Shown here one piece after another: positions 441 through 12,190 of a stretch of 12,190 nucleotides of DNA (position 1 is its first letter; each line of letters starts with the position of its first letter). This DNA comes from Flavobacterium sp. (GTDB lineage Bacteria; Bacteroidota; Bacteroidia; Flavobacteriales; Flavobacteriaceae). The translations under genes were made by a program, and so were the position numbers. The notes under the pieces were generated by a model. It had not been told where the DNA came from, searched no databases, and worked only from the letters and a program-made list of their open reading frames with translations. The stretch covers positions 1 through 12,190 of the forward strand of contig JANJWE010000296.1 of the NCBI GenBank assembly GCA_024709705.1. Reading direction: 5' to 3'.

Positions 441-1787
441 ATGTTTAAAAAAATATTAGTAGCCAATCGCGGAGAAATTGCACTACGTGTGATAAGAACG
501 TGTAAGGAAATGGGTATCAAAACTGTGGCGGTTTATTCTACAGCCGATGCAGAAAGTCTTCACGTAAAGTTTGCCGATGAAGCCGTTTGTATTGGTCCTC
601 CGCCTAGTAATTTGTCCTATTTAAAAATGTCAAACATAATAGCAGCTGCAGAAATTACCAATGCTGATGCTATTCATCCCGGTTACGGATTTTTATCTGA
701 AAACGCTAAGTTTTCTAAAATTTGTCAAGAACACGGCATTAAATTTATTGGGGCTTCTCCTGAAATGATTGAAAAAATGGGAGACAAAGCAACTGCTAAA
801 GCTACCATGAAAGCAGCTGGAGTTCCTTGTGTTCCCGGATCTGACGGAATTTTAGAATCGTTTGAACAAGCTAAAAAAGTAGCCAAAGAAATTGGTTATC
901 CGGTAATGATGAAAGCTACTGCCGGTGGTGGTGGTAAAGGAATGAGAGCCATTTGGAAAGAAAGCGAGTTAGAAAAAGCTTGGGAAAGTGCCCGTCAAGA
1001 AGCAGCCGCAGCTTTCGGAAATGATGGAATGTACATGGAAAAATTGATAGAAGAACCCAGACATATTGAAATTCAAGTAGTAGGTGATGCCTATGGTAAA
1101 GCGTGTCACTTATCCGAAAGAGATTGCTCCGTTCAACGTCGTCATCAAAAATTAACAGAAGAAACACCTTCTCCTTTTATGACCGATGATTTACGCGAAA
1201 AAATGGGAGAAGCTGCTGTAAAAGCCGCAGAGTTTATCAAATATGAAGGGGCCGGAACAGTGGAATTTTTGGTGGACAAACACCGAAATTTCTACTTCAT
1301 GGAAATGAATACACGTATTCAAGTAGAGCATCCTATTACGGAACAAGTTATTGATTACGATTTGATTCGTGAACAAATTTTAGTAGCAGCAGGTGTGCCA
1401 ATTTCCGGTAAAAATTATTTACCTCAATTGCATTCTATAGAATGTCGTATTAATGCCGAAGATCCGTATAATGATTTTAGACCTTCACCGGGAAAAATCA
1501 CCGTACTTCATGCACCGGGCGGACATGGTGTGCGTCTAGATACACACGTGTATGCAGGTTACACGATTCCACCAAACTACGATTCGATGATAGCCAAATT
1601 GATTACTACGGCTCAAACCCGTGAGGAAGCTATCAACAAAATGAAACGTGCTTTAGATGAATTTTATATTGAAGGAATTAAAACTACTATTCCGTTTCAC
1701 CGTCAATTAATGGACGAACCGGATTATGTAGCCGGAAATTATACCACAAAATTTATGGAAGGTTTCAAAATGAACGATCCGGAATAG
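441..1787 (+). CDS. accC: Biotin carboxylase subunit of acetyl-CoA carboxylase
   Basis: Cytoplasmic ATP-grasp enzyme that uses ATP and bicarbonate to carboxylate biotin on AccB. Its 448 residues match the 449 of E. coli AccC. The N-terminal domain begins with [13 protein letters not shown]. The ATP-grasp domain contains K116, K158, the glycine-rich loop GGGGKG (162-167), the HQKLTEE segment (K237), and E275 and E288. The signature [14 protein letters not shown] (288-301) includes the catalytic E296 region and R292. The C-terminal domain contains ECRINAE with R336. All residues expected for catalysis are present. The ATG at 441 follows an A-rich stretch (TTAATAAAAG) and gives the canonical N-terminus. 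It lies behind accB in an operon and ends at a strong terminator 24 bp downstream. Loss of function would be expected to be lethal. Confidence 0.98.
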
Positions 1788-1810: not shown

Positions 1811-1843
1811 AAAAGAGTCTGATTTTATCAGGCTCTTTTTTTA
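1811..1843 (+). terminator. Rho-independent terminator of accBC
   Basis: A 10-bp stem, AAGAGTCTGA / TCAGGCTCTT (1813-1822 and 1828-1837, one G-U pair), with loop TTTTA is followed by a run of T. It lies 24 bp after the accC stop and separates the operon from the control region of the glycosyltransferase. Confidence 0.9.
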
Positions 1844-1863
1844 TTTGTAAAAGGGGTAATCGA

Positions 1864-1922
1864 TGTAAAATTTACACATTACAAAGTGTGTAAAATTCCT
1901 TTTAATGGGTATTTTTTACACA
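1864..1922. promoter_or_regulatory. Candidate enhancer (upstream activating sequence) for a sigma-54 activator
   Basis: The core is a perfect inverted repeat: TTTACACA (1871-1878), 8-bp spacer, TGTGTAAA (1887-1894). A further half-site TGTAAA at 1864-1869 forms a second palindrome with the left arm (TGTAAA-A-TTTACA), and another TTTACACA lies at 1915-1922. I did not find the 8-mer elsewhere in the window. The centre of the main repeat lies about 120 bp upstream of the transcription start predicted from the -24/-12 element at 1977. That is the distance usual for NtrC-family activators, which bind as dimers to palindromes and loop the DNA. The activator is presumably the NtrC-type regulator encoded at 3806-5143; that link is inference. 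Confidence 0.55.
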
Positions 1923-1976
1923 GCGATTTTAAGGCATTTTATTAGTAAATATCAGAAAAACAAGGATTTGAAAAAA

Positions 1977-1993
1977 TGGAATAGCACTTGCTT
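1977..1993 (+). promoter_or_regulatory. Candidate sigma-54 (-24/-12) promoter for the glycosyltransferase
   Basis: TGGAATAGCACTTGCTT fits the RpoN consensus TGGCACG-N4-TTGCW. GG at 1978-1979 and GC at 1990-1991 are exactly 10 bp apart, the -12 block TTGCT is perfect, and the -24 block matches at 4 of 7 positions including the key TGG. The predicted start is near 2003, leaving a leader of about 97 bases before the ATG at 2100. No convincing Bacteroidetes housekeeping promoter (TTG-N19-21-TAnnTTTG) was seen in this region. The next gene downstream of the glycosyltransferase encodes a sigma-54 activator. Confidence 0.6.
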
Positions 1994-2099
1994 TATACGG
2001 AAATGTGTTTTTACTCAAACCTTTCAAGTTCAAGACAAATTAGAGTTGGGTTTTGATTAAGAATACCAAGTATAAGTTCAATACCAAAATTTTATAACT

Positions 2100-3605
2100 A
2101 TGGAAAGCCGAAATCGATATCCAAATGAATCATCTACTACAAAACGAAACGAACAGGAACAAAGCTTATTTAGTTTTGTTGTTCCGATTTATACTAAATC
2201 AATGCATCGGATTGTGGCACAAAAAGGTACGGAGATTAAAGATTTCATTCAAAGAAAAAGCAGGTTTTCCAATGTGTCAAAACATAGACTTATCAATGGG
2301 GTTGTGCTTGCCGGAACTTTCTTCATACTGGCTGGATCTGCTTTGGGTGCTTATCATTTGCAACCCCATTTTGAACAATTTAATATAGATAGAATGGGCA
2401 CTGCTTTTGGGATGTTCTTTCTAATTCTATCACTGGTTTTGTTATTTTATAAATTAGGTTTTTCTCTTTATCAGGTTTATTTGTATTTAAGGTATAAACC
2501 CATTCAATCAGTTTCTGATGAAGAATTGCCCACATGTACGATAATTGTACCGGCTTACAATGAGGGGAAACTGGTATGGGAAACCCTTAAGAGCATTGCA
2601 AATAGCGATTATCCTCAGGAAAAATTACAGCTATTAGCTATTGACGATGGCAGTAAAGATGATACATGGTATTGGATTCAGCAGGCAAAAAATGAATTGG
2701 GTGACCGATTGACAATTTTCAAACAACCCGAAAATAAAGGGAAACGTCATGCTCTTTACAAAGGATTTACTATAGGAACCGGAGATGTTTTTGTTACAAT
2801 AGACAGTGATTCTATCGTTAAGAAAGATACCCTGCGAAACTTGGTTAGTCCGTTTGTAACTCAAGAAAATTGTGGTGCTGTGGCCGGAAATGTAAGAGTT
2901 CTAAACAATCAAAAAGCCATGTTGCCTAAAATGTTGAATGTGAGTTTTGTAATGAGTTTTGAATTTGTTCGATCGGCAGAAAGTATGTTAGGTTCTGTTT
3001 TGAGTACTCCTGGAGCTCTAGCAGCATATAAAAGAGAAGCGGTATTTAATTGTTTGGAAGAATGGATTAATCAAACTTTTATGGGGCAACCCTCTGATAT
3101 AGGTGAAGACAGAGCCATGACAAATATGATCTTGAAACAAGGTTATGAAGTCTTATTTCAAAGAAATGCCCATGTGTTGACCAACGTACCGGAACAGTAT
3201 AAAGGACTTTATAAAATGTTTATTCGTTGGGGAAGAAGTAATGTGCGTGAAAACATTATGATGGCAAAATATGTGTTTACAAATTTTAGAACGGAATCTA
3301 AATTTGGTGCTAGGCTCTTATTTTTTAATCAATCTTTAAATATAATAATGACCTATCCATTTCTGATATTCATGCTGTTTTTTATTATTACTCACCCGGT
3401 TTTATTTTTAAGTTCAACACTGGTAAGTATATTCGTTCTATCATCATTCCCAATGCTGTTTTATGCTAAAAGATATAATTTTTCTGAGTCGGTTTGGGCA
3501 TATACTTATAGTGTATTGTATACGTTTGGGCTTTTTTGGATAACGCCTTATGCCATTGCCACAGCAGGCAAAAGGGGTTGGTTAACCCGTGAAATATCGG
3601 CCTAA
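2100..3605 (+). CDS. Membrane family 2 glycosyltransferase (hyaluronan/PNAG synthase-like)
   Basis: Probably a processive membrane glycosyltransferase that polymerises a surface polysaccharide from a nucleotide sugar; the sugar cannot be told from sequence. The 501 residues comprise a polar N-terminus (1-60), two membrane segments (about 66-84 and 101-122), a cytoplasmic GT-A domain (about 144-390) and about three membrane segments (410-487). GT2 motifs are clear: IIVPAYNE (148-155), IDDGSKDD (181-188), the metal-binding DSD (235-237) and the ED catalytic-base motif (336-337). The acceptor motif, usually Q(Q/R)xxRW, reads MFIRW (373-377), so the Gln is Met. The following RSNVRE resembles synthases of the NodC/HasA type. 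The ATG at 2100 has no obvious ribosome binding site; Met35 is an alternative start. It stands alone behind a candidate sigma-54 promoter and ends in two hairpins, so it is probably a single-gene transcript. No PgaB, PgaD or BcsB-like partner is nearby. Confidence 0.88.
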   Translation: MESRNRYPNESSTTKRNEQEQSLFSFVVPIYTKSMHRIVAQKGTEIKDFIQRKSRFSNVSKHRLINGVVLAGTFFILAGSALGAYHLQPHFEQFNIDRMGTAFGMFFLILSLVLLFYKLGFSLYQVYLYLRYKPIQSVSDEELPTCTIIVPAYNEGKLVWETLKSIANSDYPQEKLQLLAIDDGSKDDTWYWIQQAKNELGDRLTIFKQPENKGKRHALYKGFTIGTGDVFVTIDSDSIVKKDTLRNLVSPFVTQENCGAVAGNVRVLNNQKAMLPKMLNVSFVMSFEFVRSAESMLGSVLSTPGALAAYKREAVFNCLEEWINQTFMGQPSDIGEDRAMTNMILKQGYEVLFQRNAHVLTNVPEQYKGLYKMFIRWGRSNVRENIMMAKYVFTNFRTESKFGARLLFFNQSLNIIMTYPFLIFMLFFIITHPVLFLSSTLVSIFVLSSFPMLFYAKRYNFSESVWAYTYSVLYTFGLFWITPYAIATAGKRGWLTREISA

Positions 3606-3709: not shown

Positions 3710-3738
3710 AAAAAGAGGTTTTTAAAACCTCTTTTTTT
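3710..3738 (+). terminator. Rho-independent terminator after the glycosyltransferase
   Basis: The stem AAAAAGAGGTTT / AAACCTCTTTTT closes a tiny TTA loop and runs into seven Ts (3732-3738). The A/T flanks make it nearly symmetrical, so it could stop transcription in both directions, but no gene arrives from the right. It lies 105 bp after the glycosyltransferase stop and separates it from the regulator gene. Confidence 0.85.
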
Positions 3739-3805: not shown

Positions 3806-5143
3806 ATGAAGACTATTTTATTGATTGAAGACGATATTGCTTTTTCAAAAATGGTGAGCAACTTTCTTTCTAAAAATGGATACCTTGTTGAAGCAGCCTA
3901 TACTGCACAGGAGTCCAAAAATCGTTTTAAAAATTCAGATTTTGATTTGGTTTTGTGTGATTTACGTTTGCCGGATAGTGATGGTATTGACCTGATGATT
4001 GATTTAAAATCAACTAAAAATGAGGTTCCGGTAGTTTTGATGACGGGCTATGCCGATGTAAATACTGCTGTCAAAGCCATGAAAAAAGGAGCGGCAGATT
4101 ATATTTCCAAACCGTTTGTTCCCGAAGAAGTTTTATTGGTTCTTTCTAACGCGTTACTTTCTCCTAATGCTCAAAAAAAGCCTGAAAATAGTCAAAAGAA
4201 TAAAATAGAAAGTTCTGTTTCTAGTGATTTTGTTCAAGGGATCAGCCCCGTATCTAAAGCGATGAACAAACACATTGAATTGGTAAGTCCAACTAATTTA
4301 TCGGTTTTAATTATTGGTGAAAGCGGAACCGGGAAAGAGGTTGTGGCCAAAGAAATCCACAATCTGAGTCATCGAAATAAGGCTCCGTTTATAGCGGTTG
4401 ATTGTGGAGCTATTCCCAAAGAATTAGCAACCAGCGAGTTTTTTGGTCATTTAAAAGGTTCTTTTACAGGTGCGGTAACAGATAAAATGGGGCATTTTGA
4501 AGCCGCAAATGGAGGTACTTTGTTTTTGGATGAAGTGGGTAATCTAACCTATGAAAATCAAATACAACTATTAAGAGCTTTACAAGAACGCAAAGTAAAA
4601 CGAATAGGAAGCAGTAAAGAAGTAGAAGTAGATATTCGAGTAATTGCAGCCACAAATGAAGATTTAAAAGAAGCGGTGAAAGCGGGAAATTTCCGTGAAG
4701 ATTTATACCATCGATTGAATGAATTTTCCATTGAAGTTCCCAGTTTAAATGAGAGAAAACAAGATTTGCTGATGTATGCCGAATATTTTTTGGAAAAAGC
4801 CAACGAACAATTACATAAAAAGGTTTTAGGATTTTCACCCGAAACACTTCGAATTTTTCAAAACTATTCTTGGCCCGGAAATCTAAGAGAATTGCAAAAT
4901 ATTATCCGAAGAGCGGTATTGTTAACCCCTGGAGATCTAGTCGAAAAAGAGGTTATTCCTTCTGAGTTTTTTGAAGTAGAAAACCAATCTTCATCTGCAT
5001 TTTCAAAATCACAAAACGAAAAGGAAATGATAATTAAAGCTCTTCAAATATGTAACGGAAATAAATCAGAGGCTGCAAAAATGTTGGAAATTAACCGTAA
5101 AACACTTTACAATAAACTTAAGCTTTATCATTTAGAGGATTAG
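3806..5143 (+). CDS. Sigma-54-dependent response regulator (NtrC/AtoC family)
   Basis: Cytoplasmic transcription activator that, when phosphorylated, hydrolyses ATP to open promoters held by RNA polymerase with sigma-54. The 445 residues show the full three-domain layout. The receiver domain (1-115) has acidic residues E8, D9 and D10, phospho-acceptor D52 and K102. The AAA+ domain (about 143-375) has Walker A GESGTGKE (171-178), the sigma-54 contact loop GSFTGA (218-223), Walker B TLFLDE (238-243) and the REDLYHRLN segment with arginine finger candidates R297 and R303. The Fis-type helix-turn-helix is at about 405-441 (NKSEAAKMLEINRKTLYNKL). Every key residue is intact. The neighbouring hybrid kinase, convergent and overlapping by 12 bp at the 3' end, is the likely phosphate donor. 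The glycosyltransferase upstream, with its -24/-12 promoter, is the likely target. The specific gene name is not recognisable. Confidence 0.95.
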   Translation: MKTILLIEDDIAFSKMVSNFLSKNGYLVEAAYTAQESKNRFKNSDFDLVLCDLRLPDSDGIDLMIDLKSTKNEVPVVLMTGYADVNTAVKAMKKGAADYISKPFVPEEVLLVLSNALLSPNAQKKPENSQKNKIESSVSSDFVQGISPVSKAMNKHIELVSPTNLSVLIIGESGTGKEVVAKEIHNLSHRNKAPFIAVDCGAIPKELATSEFFGHLKGSFTGAVTDKMGHFEAANGGTLFLDEVGNLTYENQIQLLRALQERKVKRIGSSKEVEVDIRVIAATNEDLKEAVKAGNFREDLYHRLNEFSIEVPSLNERKQDLLMYAEYFLEKANEQLHKKVLGFSPETLRIFQNYSWPGNLRELQNIIRRAVLLTPGDLVEKEVIPSEFFEVENQSSSAFSKSQNEKEMIIKALQICNGNKSEAAKMLEINRKTLYNKLKLYHLED

Positions 5144-7546
5144 TTCTTTTTCTAATGTATCAATTAATTTTGTAAGTTTATTTCGAACCTCATAAAACAA
5201 CTTTTGAAGGGCAGAGTTTGAGATATTTGATGTTTTACAAGTTTCCAATTCTTGCAAAAGCCGAACAATGTGGTAAGCTCCAACTTGATGAGTCATTGGT
5301 ATCATTCGATGTGAAATAGATTCTACCAAAGAATAATTTTTGTCTTCAATTGCTTTTTCTATTTGAATCAAACTGGAGCGTGTGTTTTCTATATACGAAT
5401 TTAAAACATCTCGAATAGCCTCTTGATCATTATCCAACATTGTTTTTAAAGCACTTAGATTGTACGCTTCAATGGTGTTTTCTTCCTTTTTTAAAATTTG
5501 CTTTTGATTTATTTCAATTGGAGTGTGAAGTACTTGATTTAAAACAGAAATCAACTCTTCAGAGGTATATGGTTTGTAAAGTAGAGAAGCAAACCCTTTT
5601 TTTGTATAATATTCTTTTCCCCATAGACGTTGCCCCGTTATTGCAATTACCGGAAGTGAACTCGGTATTTGTTCTAACAACTCAAATCCGCTCATTTCTG
5701 GCATTTGAATATCCGTGAAAACAACATCTACACTTGATGTGTGTAGTGCCTCCAAAAGTTCTTTGGGATGGTTAAAAGAAAGAACATTGAATTGATGTAG
5801 TTTTAAAAATGTAGTTGTAAGTTGGAGTAATGAACTGTCATCATCCACAACAGCTAGAGTGTAATTATGATCTTGTTTTGAGTTTTGTAATAGTGTATTT
5901 TCTATTTCTTTACTTTTTGCGGGAAGTATCATTTTAAATGTACTTCCTTGACCCAATTCGCTTTCAACAGTTAAGTTGCCGCCCAACATTTCAGTAAGTT
6001 TTTTGCAAATGGTTAGACCTAATCCGGTTCCGCCATATTTTTTTTCTATGCTGGAATTGGCTTGAGTAAATTCATTAAAAATCAAATGCAATTGATCTTT
6101 TTTTATTCCAATTCCGCTATCTTGAACACTTAAATACAGTTGGTTTTGGTTGTATTTTGCCGTGATTTTTATGAATCCGTTCTCCGTAAATTTATAGGCA
6201 TTTCCTATCAAGTTACTTATGATTTGTCGAATGCGTAAGGCATCACTCTCTATCAAAAGGTTTTCAATGGCATCTAACTCGAATTGTAAGGAAATCGTTT
6301 TATTGTGATAAAGAGATTGAATGCTTAGGGCAACTTCTTCAATGAGTTGGTGTAAATTAAAAACAGATATTTCCGGCTTAATTTTTCCGGCTTCAATTTT
6401 GGAAAAATCCAACAAATCGTTGACCAATTGATTGATATAAACCGAAGCACTTTGAATATTAGAAATATAGTAGTTTTGTTTTTCTGAGATATTTCCGGAT
6501 TTAACAAGTTCACTAAATCCTTGAATGGTATTGAGTGGAGTTCTCAAATCATGACTCACCGTTGCAATAAGTTGCTCTATAGCGGTTAATAGGGTTTCTG
6601 TTTTCTTTTTTTCTATTTCTAATTGTTTTCTGTAGCGTTGATTTTTAAGAAAATCATTGGTTATCAAAAGGAAAAACAATCCGGTCATTAGGAGTCCAAT
6701 TACCGCTGCCGAGGTTAAAATAGAAACGGTCTTTTGTTGGGCTTCTTCTCTGGAAAGATTATTTAAATTGGCTTTTTTGATGATATCAGATTCAAATTCA
6801 ACCAAAATTTCGTTTAGTTTTTGTGAAATAAACAAATCATTACGCAGTAATTCAATTTCTTTATTTTTTTGCGAAGTCGTTTTTACCTGATTATTGGTGC
6901 GAACATTTTCGAGTATTTTTTTGGATGATACCAAAATAGAATCTATTTCTTTATCCGATAATGTACTCGCTGATTCTTTGGGTACGTTTTCATTCAGATA
7001 ATCAACATATTCCTGATATACTTTTTTTTCGTATGCAGAAAGTTGGTTTGGATTAATATTCAATCCTTCTAGGGTAATCTTACCCATTGATTCTTCCATT
7101 CTTCTAATATCGGTAACTGCTTTTTCAATAGAACTGTAATCGTTTTGGGATGTGTTCATTTTTTTTAGTGCAGTTATGTTTGCTACTTTTTGTTCTAAAA
7201 TGATTTTTAAACTATCTAATTGTTCTATCTGTTTGGCATTGTCAATTTTTTGTTCAAAAGAATCGATGGCTTTTATGAGTTTTTGATTTTCTTGGTAATA
7301 GAGTCTGAAATCATTTTCTTTATTGTTTTGGGCTGCAATTCGACCTAAATTATCAACATCATAAATTTTAGAAATTAAAGAGCTGAGATGGATTAGTTTT
7401 TGGTTTTCAACAACAGATTCATTTTCATAATCTGTAAAAAGTTTATTTTCTTTAAAAAGCAAAAAACCTACTGCTATTACCAGTGTAGCAAGCAGTAAGT
7501 AGCTTAGGAGCACTTTGAGTGGAATAAAGCTTGATTTTTGTGCCAT
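5132..7546 (-). CDS. Hybrid histidine kinase with receiver and HPt domains
   Basis: Inner-membrane sensor kinase with an internal phosphorelay. From the ATG at 7546 it has 804 residues; a TTG seven codons upstream (7567) could also open the frame but is less likely. Order: membrane segment (about 10-31); helical extracytoplasmic sensor region (about 35-270) of no family I recognise; membrane segment (274-295); coiled linker; HisKA with SHDLRTP (H332); HATPase with N box NLIGNAYKF, G1 DSGIGI (476-481) and G2 GGTGLGL (505-511); receiver domain with DDD (568-570), D612 and K658; and a C-terminal HPt-like domain with SHRM (H746). The expected path is H332 to D612 to H746 to a separate regulator, as in ArcB or BarA. 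The obvious acceptor is D52 of the convergent NtrC-type protein. The signal sensed is unknown. The 3' end overlaps the regulator gene by 12 bp. Confidence 0.94.
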   Translation of the reverse strand: MAQKSSFIPLKVLLSYLLLATLVIAVGFLLFKENKLFTDYENESVVENQKLIHLSSLISKIYDVDNLGRIAAQNNKENDFRLYYQENQKLIKAIDSFEQKIDNAKQIEQLDSLKIILEQKVANITALKKMNTSQNDYSSIEKAVTDIRRMEESMGKITLEGLNINPNQLSAYEKKVYQEYVDYLNENVPKESASTLSDKEIDSILVSSKKILENVRTNNQVKTTSQKNKEIELLRNDLFISQKLNEILVEFESDIIKKANLNNLSREEAQQKTVSILTSAAVIGLLMTGLFFLLITNDFLKNQRYRKQLEIEKKKTETLLTAIEQLIATVSHDLRTPLNTIQGFSELVKSGNISEKQNYYISNIQSASVYINQLVNDLLDFSKIEAGKIKPEISVFNLHQLIEEVALSIQSLYHNKTISLQFELDAIENLLIESDALRIRQIISNLIGNAYKFTENGFIKITAKYNQNQLYLSVQDSGIGIKKDQLHLIFNEFTQANSSIEKKYGGTGLGLTICKKLTEMLGGNLTVESELGQGSTFKMILPAKSKEIENTLLQNSKQDHNYTLAVVDDDSSLLQLTTTFLKLHQFNVLSFNHPKELLEALHTSSVDVVFTDIQMPEMSGFELLEQIPSSLPVIAITGQRLWGKEYYTKKGFASLLYKPYTSEELISVLNQVLHTPIEINQKQILKKEENTIEAYNLSALKTMLDNDQEAIRDVLNSYIENTRSSLIQIEKAIEDKNYSLVESISHRMIPMTHQVGAYHIVRLLQELETCKTSNISNSALQKLFYEVRNKLTKLIDTLEKELIL

Positions 7547-7593
7547 TCTCAAAGATAAAAAGAACAAAAGGTTTTGTTTACCTAGGAAGTGTT

Positions 7594-7626: not shown

Positions 7627-9531
7627 TTATAAGGTTTCTTTTAACCAAGAAAAGAATTCGCGTTGCCAAACCATAGCATTTTGAGGTTGAAGCACCCAAT
7701 GATTTTCTTCCGGAAAATAGATAAATCTACTTTTGATACCTTGCAATTGAGCCGCTTGAAAGGCTTCTTGTCCTTGACCAATGGGCACACGAAAATCTTT
7801 TCCACCTTGAATGATTAAGATAGGCGTATCCCATTGGGTTACATTTTTAATGGGATTAAATTGCGAATAGGTTTTTTGAGCCAAAGTATTGGTTTTATCC
7901 CAATACGGTCCGCCCAAATCCCAGTCGGTAAAAAACACCTCTTCGGTTGTCCCATACATGCTTTCTAGATTGAAAACTCCACAATGCGAGATAAACGATT
8001 TAAAACGTTTGTTGTGTATTCCGGCTAAATAAAAAACGGAATAACCACCATAACTTGCACCTACAGCTCCTAAACGTGATTGGTCTACATAACTTTCCTT
8101 AGCCACATCGTCAATGGCAGAAAGGTAATCATCCATCACTTGTCCGCCCCAGTCTTTGCTGATTTGTTCGTTCCATTCAACCCCATGACCCGGCATTCCT
8201 CGGCGGTTTGGAGCCACTACTACATAACCCTGAGAAGCCATCAAACTGAAATTCCATCTAAAGGAGTAAAATTGTGATAGAGCTCCTTGAGGTCCTCCTT
8301 GACAATACAATAATGCAGGGTATTTTTTTGAGGCATCAAAATTGGGAGGAAGAATAACCCAAACCAACATTTTTTTTCCATCGGTTGTAGTTACATATCT
8401 TTTTTCAAATTTGGGTAAAGCTAGTTTTTTATAGATTTCATCATTTACTTTGGTGATTTGTAACCACGTTTTTTTCTTAAAATCATAGGAATAAATTTCT
8501 TTTGCATGGTTCATGTCGGTTCTACCCACAATAATTTTATCACCTGAAAATCCCACAATATCCGTGACATCAAAATCACCCGATGTAATTTGACGCACCG
8601 TAATAGCTATTCGAGTTAATCCCGGAAAGTTTACTTCAAACAATTGTTTGGTACCATCAACCGGAGCTAAGAAATAGACTTTTTTTCCATCGGCACTCCA
8701 AGTGAAACTGTCCACTGTTCCGTCCCAATTAGCGGTTAAGTTCATGTCCATTCCTTTAAAACGTACAATTATGTCGTTCTTGTCGGCCTCAAAACCATCG
8801 CGTTTCATTTGCAGCCACGACAATTCGCCATTAGGTGAAATGGTGGGATGCGTGTCGTAACCTAAATTGTTTTCGGTTAGATTGGTAGTGGTTTGGGTTT
8901 CTAAGTTGTACTCGTATAAATCGGTATTGGTAGAAACGGCATATGCAGTACCTGATTTCTTTTTGCAAACATAAATAATGCTTTTCCCGTCTTTTGACCA
9001 AACGTAATCTTCGTCGCCACCAAATGGTTTTTGAGGAGAATCAAACGGTTCGTCTTTCATGATGTCAAAAAAGGAGTTTTCTTTACCTATTTCTGAAAAA
9101 CCAACGTGATTGTGTTTGCCTTCATTCCAGCTGTCCCAGTGGCGGTAATTTAGTCCGTTATAAACTTGAACATCCGACTTGTTAAGTTCAGGGTAAATAT
9201 CTTTTCCGTTTATCTTTTCCATTTTCACTTCTTTGTGAGAAAGGAGAAATTTTCCGTTAGAAGAAATATTTTTATCGTTTAAAAGTTCTTTGGTTTCGGT
9301 AATTTCTGTAGCAATGCCGCCATTAATTGGAATGCTGTAAAATTTGGAATTAGATTTATTTTCTTCTACAGAAGGTGTAGCAACTTTGTAAATGATATTT
9401 TTTCCATCTTTGGAAATACCTAAAGGCGAAACTCTGCCCAATTTCCATAGAGTTTCCGGAGTTAACACTTGTTGAGCGGTTGAGGTTGTTAATCCCATAA
9501 AACAACTTAAAATTAAAATTAGATTTTTCAT
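7627..9531 (-). CDS. Secreted S9 family serine peptidase (DPP5/acylaminoacyl-peptidase-like)
   Basis: Probably a periplasmic exopeptidase that removes dipeptides or acylated residues from peptides. The 634-residue protein starts with a signal peptide (MKNLILILSCFMGLTTSTA, cleavage likely after A19). An N-terminal beta-propeller (about 25-375) contains repeats of the type 'WSxDGKxIxY' (178-187, 278-287). The C-terminal alpha/beta-hydrolase domain (about 385-634) carries the triad: S493 in GASYGGY, D579 in GGKDFRVP and H611 in ENHW. HGG-like oxyanion motif QGGPQG is at 411-416. Length and layout fit bacterial dipeptidyl-peptidase 5 and related prolyl oligopeptidase family enzymes; exact specificity is not readable. 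The ATG at 9531 follows an A/T-rich leader without Shine-Dalgarno. It is transcribed alone, with its own terminator. Peptide scavenging is typical of Flavobacteriia. Confidence 0.92.
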   Translation of the reverse strand: MKNLILILSCFMGLTTSTAQQVLTPETLWKLGRVSPLGISKDGKNIIYKVATPSVEENKSNSKFYSIPINGGIATEITETKELLNDKNISSNGKFLLSHKEVKMEKINGKDIYPELNKSDVQVYNGLNYRHWDSWNEGKHNHVGFSEIGKENSFFDIMKDEPFDSPQKPFGGDEDYVWSKDGKSIIYVCKKKSGTAYAVSTNTDLYEYNLETQTTTNLTENNLGYDTHPTISPNGELSWLQMKRDGFEADKNDIIVRFKGMDMNLTANWDGTVDSFTWSADGKKVYFLAPVDGTKQLFEVNFPGLTRIAITVRQITSGDFDVTDIVGFSGDKIIVGRTDMNHAKEIYSYDFKKKTWLQITKVNDEIYKKLALPKFEKRYVTTTDGKKMLVWVILPPNFDASKKYPALLYCQGGPQGALSQFYSFRWNFSLMASQGYVVVAPNRRGMPGHGVEWNEQISKDWGGQVMDDYLSAIDDVAKESYVDQSRLGAVGASYGGYSVFYLAGIHNKRFKSFISHCGVFNLESMYGTTEEVFFTDWDLGGPYWDKTNTLAQKTYSQFNPIKNVTQWDTPILIIQGGKDFRVPIGQGQEAFQAAQLQGIKSRFIYFPEENHWVLQPQNAMVWQREFFSWLKETL

Positions 9532-11553: not shown

Positions 11554-12190
11554 TTAGATTTTTATAATCCCCATATTAAATAAGGTAAACGCCTGAATGT
11601 CTGCGTTTTCTTCAATGGTTTTAGAGATTGGTTTTCCGGCTCCGTGTCCAGCATTTACATCTATTCGTATTAAGACAGGGTTTGTGCCGGCTTGTTTGTC
11701 TTGTAATTCTGCAGCAAATTTAAAACTATGTGCCGGAACTACGCGGTCATCATGATCGGCTGTAGTTACTAGGGTTGCCGGATATTGAACCCCTTTTTTT
11801 ACATTATGTACCGGAGAATAGTTTTTCAAATATTCAAACATTTCTTTACTGTCGTTTACTGTACCGTAATCATAAGCCCATCCGGCACCGGCAGTAAAAG
11901 TATGGTATCGTAACATATCCAGTACTCCAACAGCAGGAAGTGCAACTTTGGCCAAATCGGGTCTTTGAGTCATTACGGCTCCAACCAATAAACCATCATT
12001 TGAACCTCCTCTAATGGCTAAATAATCTGAAGATGTATACTTTTGAGCGATTAAATATTCTCCTGCTGCAATAAAGTCGTCAAAAACATTTTGTTTTTTC
12101 ATTTGTATACCGGCATCATGCCATTTTTTTCCATACTCGCCACCGCCTCTGAGATTTACAACAGCATAAATTCCGCCATTTTCCATCCAT
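11554..12190 (-). CDS. Prolyl oligopeptidase (S9A), C-terminal part
   Basis: Serine peptidase that cleaves short peptides after proline. The frame runs off the right edge (codon TGG precedes the first Met in the window), so only the last 210 or so of about 700 residues are seen: most of the catalytic domain. Counting from the Met at 12184-12186: NLRGGGEYG (11-19), nucleophile S62 in [10 protein letters not shown]103 in AGWAYDYG (matching the proline-stacking Trp595 of porcine prolyl oligopeptidase), D146 and R148 in HDDRVVP, and H181 in AGHGAGKP. These mark S9A rather than oligopeptidase B. The odd point is D64: the family normally has GGSNGG here. A signal peptide, if any, lies outside the window. 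It converges with mtgA and shares its terminator. Confidence 0.93.

Follow-up and report, generated by a model that had tools for sequence, protein, structure and literature searches.

A predicted sigma-54 switch, run by an NtrC-type regulator, for a hyaluronan-synthase-like glycosyltransferase in Flavobacterium

The window analysed here, a stretch of 12,190 nucleotides, is contig C110 of the Flavobacterium sp. draft genome G000 (2.26 Mb, 82% complete). Its gene order is accC, a 312-base spacer, a glycosyltransferase (GT) gene, an NtrC-type regulator gene and a convergent hybrid kinase gene, with the following features.

441..1787, plus strand: accC-like biotin carboxylase, the upstream neighbour (Pfam Biotin_carb_N/C, CPSase_L_D2)
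1812..1842, plus strand: terminator-like inverted repeat followed by a T run, the putative end of the accC unit (sequence reading)
1863..1877, unstranded: distal predicted activator site ATGTA-N5-TACAC, an inverted repeat with 1 mismatch centred about 107 bp upstream of the -24
1871..1894, unstranded: palindrome TTTACACA-N8-TGTGTAAA, right arm conserved, left arm partly
1887..1894, plus strand: half-site TGTGTAAA, of which TGTGTAA (1887-1893) is kept in 7 of 7 aligned rows
1907..1921, unstranded: main predicted activator site GGGTA-TTTTT-TACAC (GGGTA-N5-TACAC), 1 mismatch to GTGTA/TACAC, centred about 62 bp upstream of the -24
1977..1993, plus strand: predicted sigma-54 -24/-12 element TGGAATAGCACTTGCTT, with GG at 1978-1979, GC at 1990-1991 and N10 between
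2003, plus strand: predicted transcription start, 12 bases past the -12 C as inferred from spacing, giving a leader of about 97 bases
2100..3605, plus strand: GT2 membrane polysaccharide synthase, hyaluronan-synthase-like (Pfam, NCBIfam, sequence and fold matches)
3712..3738, plus strand: terminator-like inverted repeat followed by a T run, a putative separator of GT and regulator (sequence reading)
3806..5143, plus strand: NtrC-type response regulator, REC-AAA+ (GSFTGA)-HTH_8 (domains, reading of the translation)
5132..7567, minus strand: hybrid sensor kinase (Pfam HisKA, HATPase, REC, weak Hpt), convergent with the regulator

The 12 kb window also contains two distinct S9 peptidase genes, at 7630-9531 and at 11554-12189, the latter cut by the contig end. 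The accC of the window is 88-95% identical to copies at regulator loci in stretches from 10 relatives, and the accC-like gene, judged by these neighbourhoods, marks the conserved locus of the regulator.

Pfam assigns the GT to GT2. Its best NCBIfam matches, NodC (157.4 of 550 bits) and PgaC (149.8 of 422.3 bits), both score far below the curated cut-offs, and its best solved relatives, by sequence and by fold, are hyaluronan synthases. The structure model is of moderate confidence (mean pLDDT 64.3, pTM 0.63). The protein is thus like class I hyaluronan synthases (8smn, 7sp7) and NodC/PgaC in fold and sequence match, but differs from them in its NCBIfam scores and in an identity of about 20% in the fold alignment to hyaluronan synthases. 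It combines the marks of a processive GT2 membrane synthase, namely a GT2 domain, DDG/DSD/GED/RW, long C-terminal helices and a fold match, and 24 orthologs share residues DD182-183, D235, D237, GED335-337 and RW376-377 without exception. The QxxRW motif of such synthases reads MFIRW here. We take the GT to be a predicted processive membrane polysaccharide synthase.

The GT gene is nearly always alone. At 111 loci, the ORF of at least 90 aa on its 3′ side lies on the same strand within 100 bases in 3, on the same strand but farther in 37, and on the opposite strand in 71. One genome (G195) carries two GT copies (L164 and L165), one with tRNA-like repeats, recognized by eye, directly upstream, and its regulator frame is broken. 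In a group of 13 loci (the L269 group) the gene upstream of the GT encodes a different, secreted-looking protein of 147 aa that by eye resembles the PepSY-like type, and at L185 (G152) the GT gene and a gene for another NtrC-type regulator, which shares 39% identity with that of the window, point away from each other.

As the initial annotation had read it, the regulator is an intact NtrC-type activator, a full-length protein with REC, sigma-54 AAA+ and HTH_8 domains in which the GAFTGA-type loop reads GSFTGA. Its best NCBIfam matches are AtoC (396.6 of 714 bits), NtrC (393.1 of 558.6) and ZraR (378.1 of 760). By the recognition helix, the orthologs fall into class A (I[TN]RKTLYNK), class B (DIDRKTLYNK-like), class C (GIDRKTLYNK) and class D (the rest, mostly ISRKT-like). 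The neighbouring gene does encode a hybrid kinase with HisKA, HATPase and REC domains, whose Hpt match is below threshold (16.5 bits against a cut-off of 24.6); the kinase also adjoins the regulator in L148, L149, L154-L160 and L162. A genome search placed rpoN, a Sigma54_DBD gene (178 bits), on contig C337, and an orphan AAA+/HTH activator with GAFTGA and no receiver domain on contig C185, next to a gene that by eye is miaB-like. Contig C265 of the same genome encodes a response regulator whose AAA+ domain has GAFTSA and which ends without an HTH, possibly no sigma-54 activator; similar proteins of 380-410 aa match in many of 37 genomes.

All motifs originally noted in the spacer lie where they were placed: TGGAATAGCACTTGCTT at 1977-1993, TTTACACA-N8-TGTGTAAA at 1871-1894, and the extra half-sites TGTAAA at 1864-1869 and TTTACACA at 1915-1922. 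On a sigma-54 matrix with hand-chosen weights that follow the Barrios consensus, the -24/-12 element of the window scores 10.5 bits, a value reached by 5.2% of 307 control upstream regions, so that the single sequence could not settle the promoter question. The controls are upstream regions of other ORFs at the same loci, many of them inside operons and so not pure spacers. The nearest relative, L258, has AGGAAT in its element and scores 9.7 bits.

A comparison across GT loci, the check proposed at the outset, bore the promoter out. The median best score is 13.3 bits over 64 GT upstream regions (of 66; L148 and L149 were dropped as duplicates of L097 and L098) and 4.9 bits over the controls. 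At least 12 bits are reached by 42 of the 64 GT upstream regions, 7 of 307 controls and 17 of 1280 shuffles, and by 68 of 80 GT loci in a named set that shares species with the 64. GG-N10-GC is conserved across relatives, and in part of them the -12 reads TTGT or TTGA, not TTGC. This conservation lifts the predicted -24/-12 element of the window above chance.

Upstream of it, the initial annotation had read the palindrome as an enhancer element. Conservation covers the right arm (1887-1894) but not the palindrome as one unit, the left arm being only partly kept: in seven aligned rows it reads TAYACA in four, CACACA in one and TATATC in two. When the window is aligned with six clade members, TGTGTAA, GGGTA, GG and CTTGC are kept in all. 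The distal site at 1863-1877 is identical in L258, and its left half is not retained in the other aligned clade members. From this alignment, the predicted enhancer core conserved in the window is 1907-1921 plus the half-site 1887-1894. In a genome scan with the perfect palindrome, a check that the initial annotation had suggested, the copy in the spacer is the sole exact one in the 2.26 Mb draft; the sole copy with 1 mismatch lies on another contig, inside a coding sequence that is aldolase-like by eye. Near-copies stay close to control level, with 36 places at up to 3 mismatches against 30 in the reversed control, and the palindrome was rejected as a genome-wide mark of a regulon.

A related inverted repeat recurs across species. 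No 5-mer is more enriched than GTGTA, be it in GT promoters (3.9-fold) or in the first nine upstream regions of PepSY-like genes beside the regulator (7.1-fold; these genes are described below), and GTGTA-N2..9-TACAC occurs in 15 of 64 GT and 2 of 9 PepSY upstream regions and in none of the 307 controls. With up to 1 mismatch and a spacer of 5-9 allowed, 33 of 43 GT promoters contain the repeat somewhere within 180 bases (shuffle mean 1.03, maximum 5). These 43 are what remains of the 64 after 17 class C rows and 4 rows lacking an anchor were left out. In a slot 58-66 bp upstream of the -24 it is found in 28 of the 43 (shuffle mean 0.055, maximum 2, over 200 rounds), a count outside which the window falls because it was listed under its equally good distal site, its 1907-1921 site filling the slot as well; the other 15 have no repeat at 0-1 mismatch in the slot. 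Among the 80 named loci the slot holds the repeat in 65 and lacks it in 15. A search for a third target in 18 genomes (GTGTA-N3..9-TACAC-N35..62-TGG) gave counts mostly only somewhat above the reversed control, and among the matches listed were several GT promoters, stretches near the regulator locus and many coding-looking places.

The GT and the regulator are strictly associated in the genus. Across 249 genomes, 87 hold both, none holds the GT alone, 24 hold the regulator alone and 138 hold neither (Fisher p 2.7e-45, phylogeny ignored), so regulator orthologs occur in 111 genomes, among them every GT genome (87/87). The cut-offs used (E at most 1e-90 for the GT and 1e-115 for the regulator) fall in gaps: the next match to the GT lies at about 1e-30, and regulator orthologs extend to 9.8e-118, a broken copy, with the next protein at about 1e-102. 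Ten further GT-bearing genomes, six filed under other names than Flavobacterium (Gelidibacter, Zunongwangia and Allomuricauda among them), three Flavobacterium and the near relative L258, all hold a regulator ortholog (10/10, 55-97% identity). The GT also occurs in a strain of F. johnsoniae (L317).

The circuit as a local arrangement, which the window had suggested, does not hold in general. The regulator was absent from the fetched stretches of the first 11 same-genus GT loci (11/11), and only 7 of the 87 GT genomes (G000, G150, G205, G242, G216, G146 and G181) have GT and regulator on a single contig and no more than 10 kb from each other, different contigs being scored as not close although they could abut. 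The other 80 have them on separate contigs or with a gap of at least about 65 kb. Adjacency is seen in the clade of the window, where GT and regulator adjoin at L148 (G150), L149 (G205), L259 and L260; at L258 accC precedes the GT and the stretch ends soon after it, and at L262 neither neighbour of the GT lies within its 13.5 kb. At L150-L153 (G242, G216, G146 and G181) GT and regulator are 4-6 kb apart on opposite strands, with neither PepSY genes nor a kinase beside the regulator.

At L154-L160, regulator and kinase follow accC, mostly ahead of a peptidase S9 gene, and the slot of the window's GT instead holds a tandem array of two to five genes, each encoding a protein of about 100 aa that looks secreted by eye. 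These proteins resemble PepSY-like proteins (PF11396) by a match that is weak and below cut-off (best of five tested 24.3 bits, against 28.3). Such genes, one to four per locus, are present at 25 of 40 further regulator loci (L188-L227) and at none of the 12 class C loci in that set (0/12), some of the stretches being short. A profile of the small proteins matched in G007, G015, G084 and G153, in none of six genomes of the window's clade (G000, G150, G205 and the genomes of L258, L260 and L262) and in none of five others (G022, G242, G032, G001 and G010). In the lineage of the window the predicted synthase occupies the slot of the relatives' PepSY-like operon.

The PepSY upstream regions carry a comparable set of elements. 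GGYAY-N5-TTYY occurs in 30 of 33 (of 34; G067, with length 0, was left out, and G135, which looks like the coding sequence of an earlier copy, was counted as a miss) against 7 of 307 controls. The repeat, with up to 1 mismatch, is centred 113-118 bp upstream of this element in 23 of the 33, a count made without a shuffle control. The predicted site lies about 53 bp farther upstream than that of the GT, which by our own reading would correspond to five helical turns. The PepSY-operon promoters (for example L154 at about 4163-4180, L156 and L200) mostly read GGYAY-N5-TTTC, with T for the sigma-54 G at -12, strongly conserved and off-consensus. The PepSY-like operon is a second predicted target of the regulator, adjacent to it in many relatives.

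The half-site varies with the recognition helix at both targets. In GT promoters TGTA[AT]A is present in 34 of 34 class A rows, 1 of 10 class B and 1 of 17 class C (B and C together 2/27; controls 50/307), and TGT[AG]GAA in 1 of 34, 8 of 10 and 8 of 17, respectively (B and C together 16/27; controls 5/307). In these 61 rows, 12 of the 34 class A genomes were assigned via near relatives rather than their own fetched regulator, for five rows lacking a -24 anchor (L099, L109, L118, L062 and L176) the scored stretch was 290 bases and not 65, and 3 class D rows were left out; in several class C promoters the half-site is hard to place. In PepSY upstream regions TGT[AG]GAA is found in 8 of 8 class B, 4 of 22 class A and 0 of 3 class D (controls 32/307), and GTGTA[AT]A in 2 of 8, 18 of 22 and 2 of 3 (controls 23/307). 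When the tree is built from the regulator minus its HTH, classes B and C, which carry the D residue, group in one supported clade of 28 rows. The agreement of site and helix is one event seen at two targets, because the helix change is that of one clade; covariation in many independent events was rejected by this tree.

We propose, with a probability of about 0.83, that the regulator binds the repeat and drives sigma-54 transcription of the single-gene, hyaluronan-synthase-like GT. In the mechanism we infer, phosphotransfer would begin at the hybrid kinase, which would phosphorylate, or relay to, the NtrC-type regulator. The regulator would bind directly to TGTGTA half-sites in inverted pairs (GTGTA-N5..9-TACAC), which in the window means the main site at 1907-1921 together with the further half-site at 1887-1894 and the distal site at 1863-1877, and by looping would drive RNA polymerase with sigma-54 open at 1977-1993, a dependence on sigma-54 that would hold in vivo. 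The single GT gene would then be transcribed, and the enzyme would polymerise and export the polymer, a surface polysaccharide. Strict co-occurrence, conserved promoters, the site shared with a second target and the agreement of site and helix lend good support to the core of the chain in the initial annotation, from the kinase/regulator pair through sigma-54 and enhancer to glycosyltransferase; its relay step is tentative, given the weak Hpt match.

The sigma-54 promoter might instead be worked by another activator, such as the orphan of contig C185, which is an AAA+/HTH protein with GAFTGA; larger genomes do hold more activators. We consider this improbable: the repeat also precedes the operon beside the window's regulator in relatives, the half-site type tracks the helix of that regulator, the genomes with the GT are a strict subset of those with the regulator, and the third candidate, on C265, has GAFTSA and no HTH. 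Nor are we inclined to a conventional regulator, activator or repressor, that binds the TTTACACA/GTGTA repeats on a sigma-A promoter, with the -24/-12 incidental. The repeats are palindromes of ordinary size, and GlnR/TnrA-type sites (TGTNA-N7-TNACA) have a somewhat similar look, but the -24/-12 stands at a fixed distance from the repeat, which lies far upstream as sigma-54 activator sites do, and a TAnnTTTG sigma-A box sought in 1788-2099 was absent; such an arrangement is very improbable. A chance resemblance, in which an AT-rich spacer happens to hold a palindrome and GG-N10-GC, can appeal to the controls that match the -24/-12 of the window taken alone, yet it would also have to account for conservation over 64 and 80 upstream regions with spacing fixed in most, and we give it almost no weight.

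The evidence, all of it comparative, thus turns an observation on one spacer into a well-supported prediction of what is very probably a sensor kinase/regulator switch for the GT. A broader idea, which we put forward tentatively and regard as rather unlikely, is that kinase, regulator, PepSY-like proteins and synthase together make up a closed loop for envelope sensing. The PepSY-like proteins, induced along with the polymer, would feed back either to the kinase's sensor part or to the synthase, and one or both outputs would be kept in a given lineage; in the lineage of the window the synthase would have taken the slot of the lost feedback operon, and the circuit would run without it.

We know of few sigma-54 activators of Bacteroidota with an assigned site or target. 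The regulator described here now has a predicted site, a spacing rule, two targets and a specificity change, over many species, so that polysaccharide production can be put to the test in a genus common in soil and water. Promoter and predicted docking sites are common to many Flavobacterium species, even with the genes far apart, and the operon lost with a synthase in its slot would be a clean example of a regulon outliving gene order.

A literature search of partial coverage, with most subscription journals outside it, found no description of the regulator, its site or the GT target, in line with the original remark that no such circuit had been described in Flavobacteriia. The predicted NtrC-type circuit would thus be new, and its kind, NtrC-type sigma-54 activation, is already known. 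In the sections available of a study of Flavobacterium psychrophilum, sigma-54 -24/-12 promoters are established, one by reporter and mutagenesis, and three activators are predicted (PMC9723704). Its Table 2A, a selection of targets, lists chaperones, proteases, the gliding rem/spr operon and exported proteins; that selection names neither a GT2 synthase nor a PepSY operon, and the same sections hold no assignment of activator to site (PMC9723704). A 2025 survey, in its accessible part, predicts sigma-54 regulons by class, with aspartate decarboxylase, TonB, chaperones, proteases and ribosomal proteins for Flavobacteriia (PMC12316311). Control of the bacterial exterior by sigma-54, exopolysaccharide included, is an old general theme (PMC3162934), and the portion of that paper at hand cites NtrC-regulated exopolysaccharide in Vibrio vulnificus; it shares the theme of the GT circuit and, in that portion, does not mention Bacteroidetes, Flavobacteri or glycosyltransferase.

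Among characterized systems, those of NtrC, AtoC and ZraR come closest. The window resembles them in its REC-AAA+-HTH_8 regulator with GSFTGA, upstream inverted repeats and predicted -24/-12 promoter, but differs in regulator scores far below the equivalog cut-offs, in a hybrid-kinase partner, in a polysaccharide synthase as predicted target and in the predicted recognition half-site TGTGTA.
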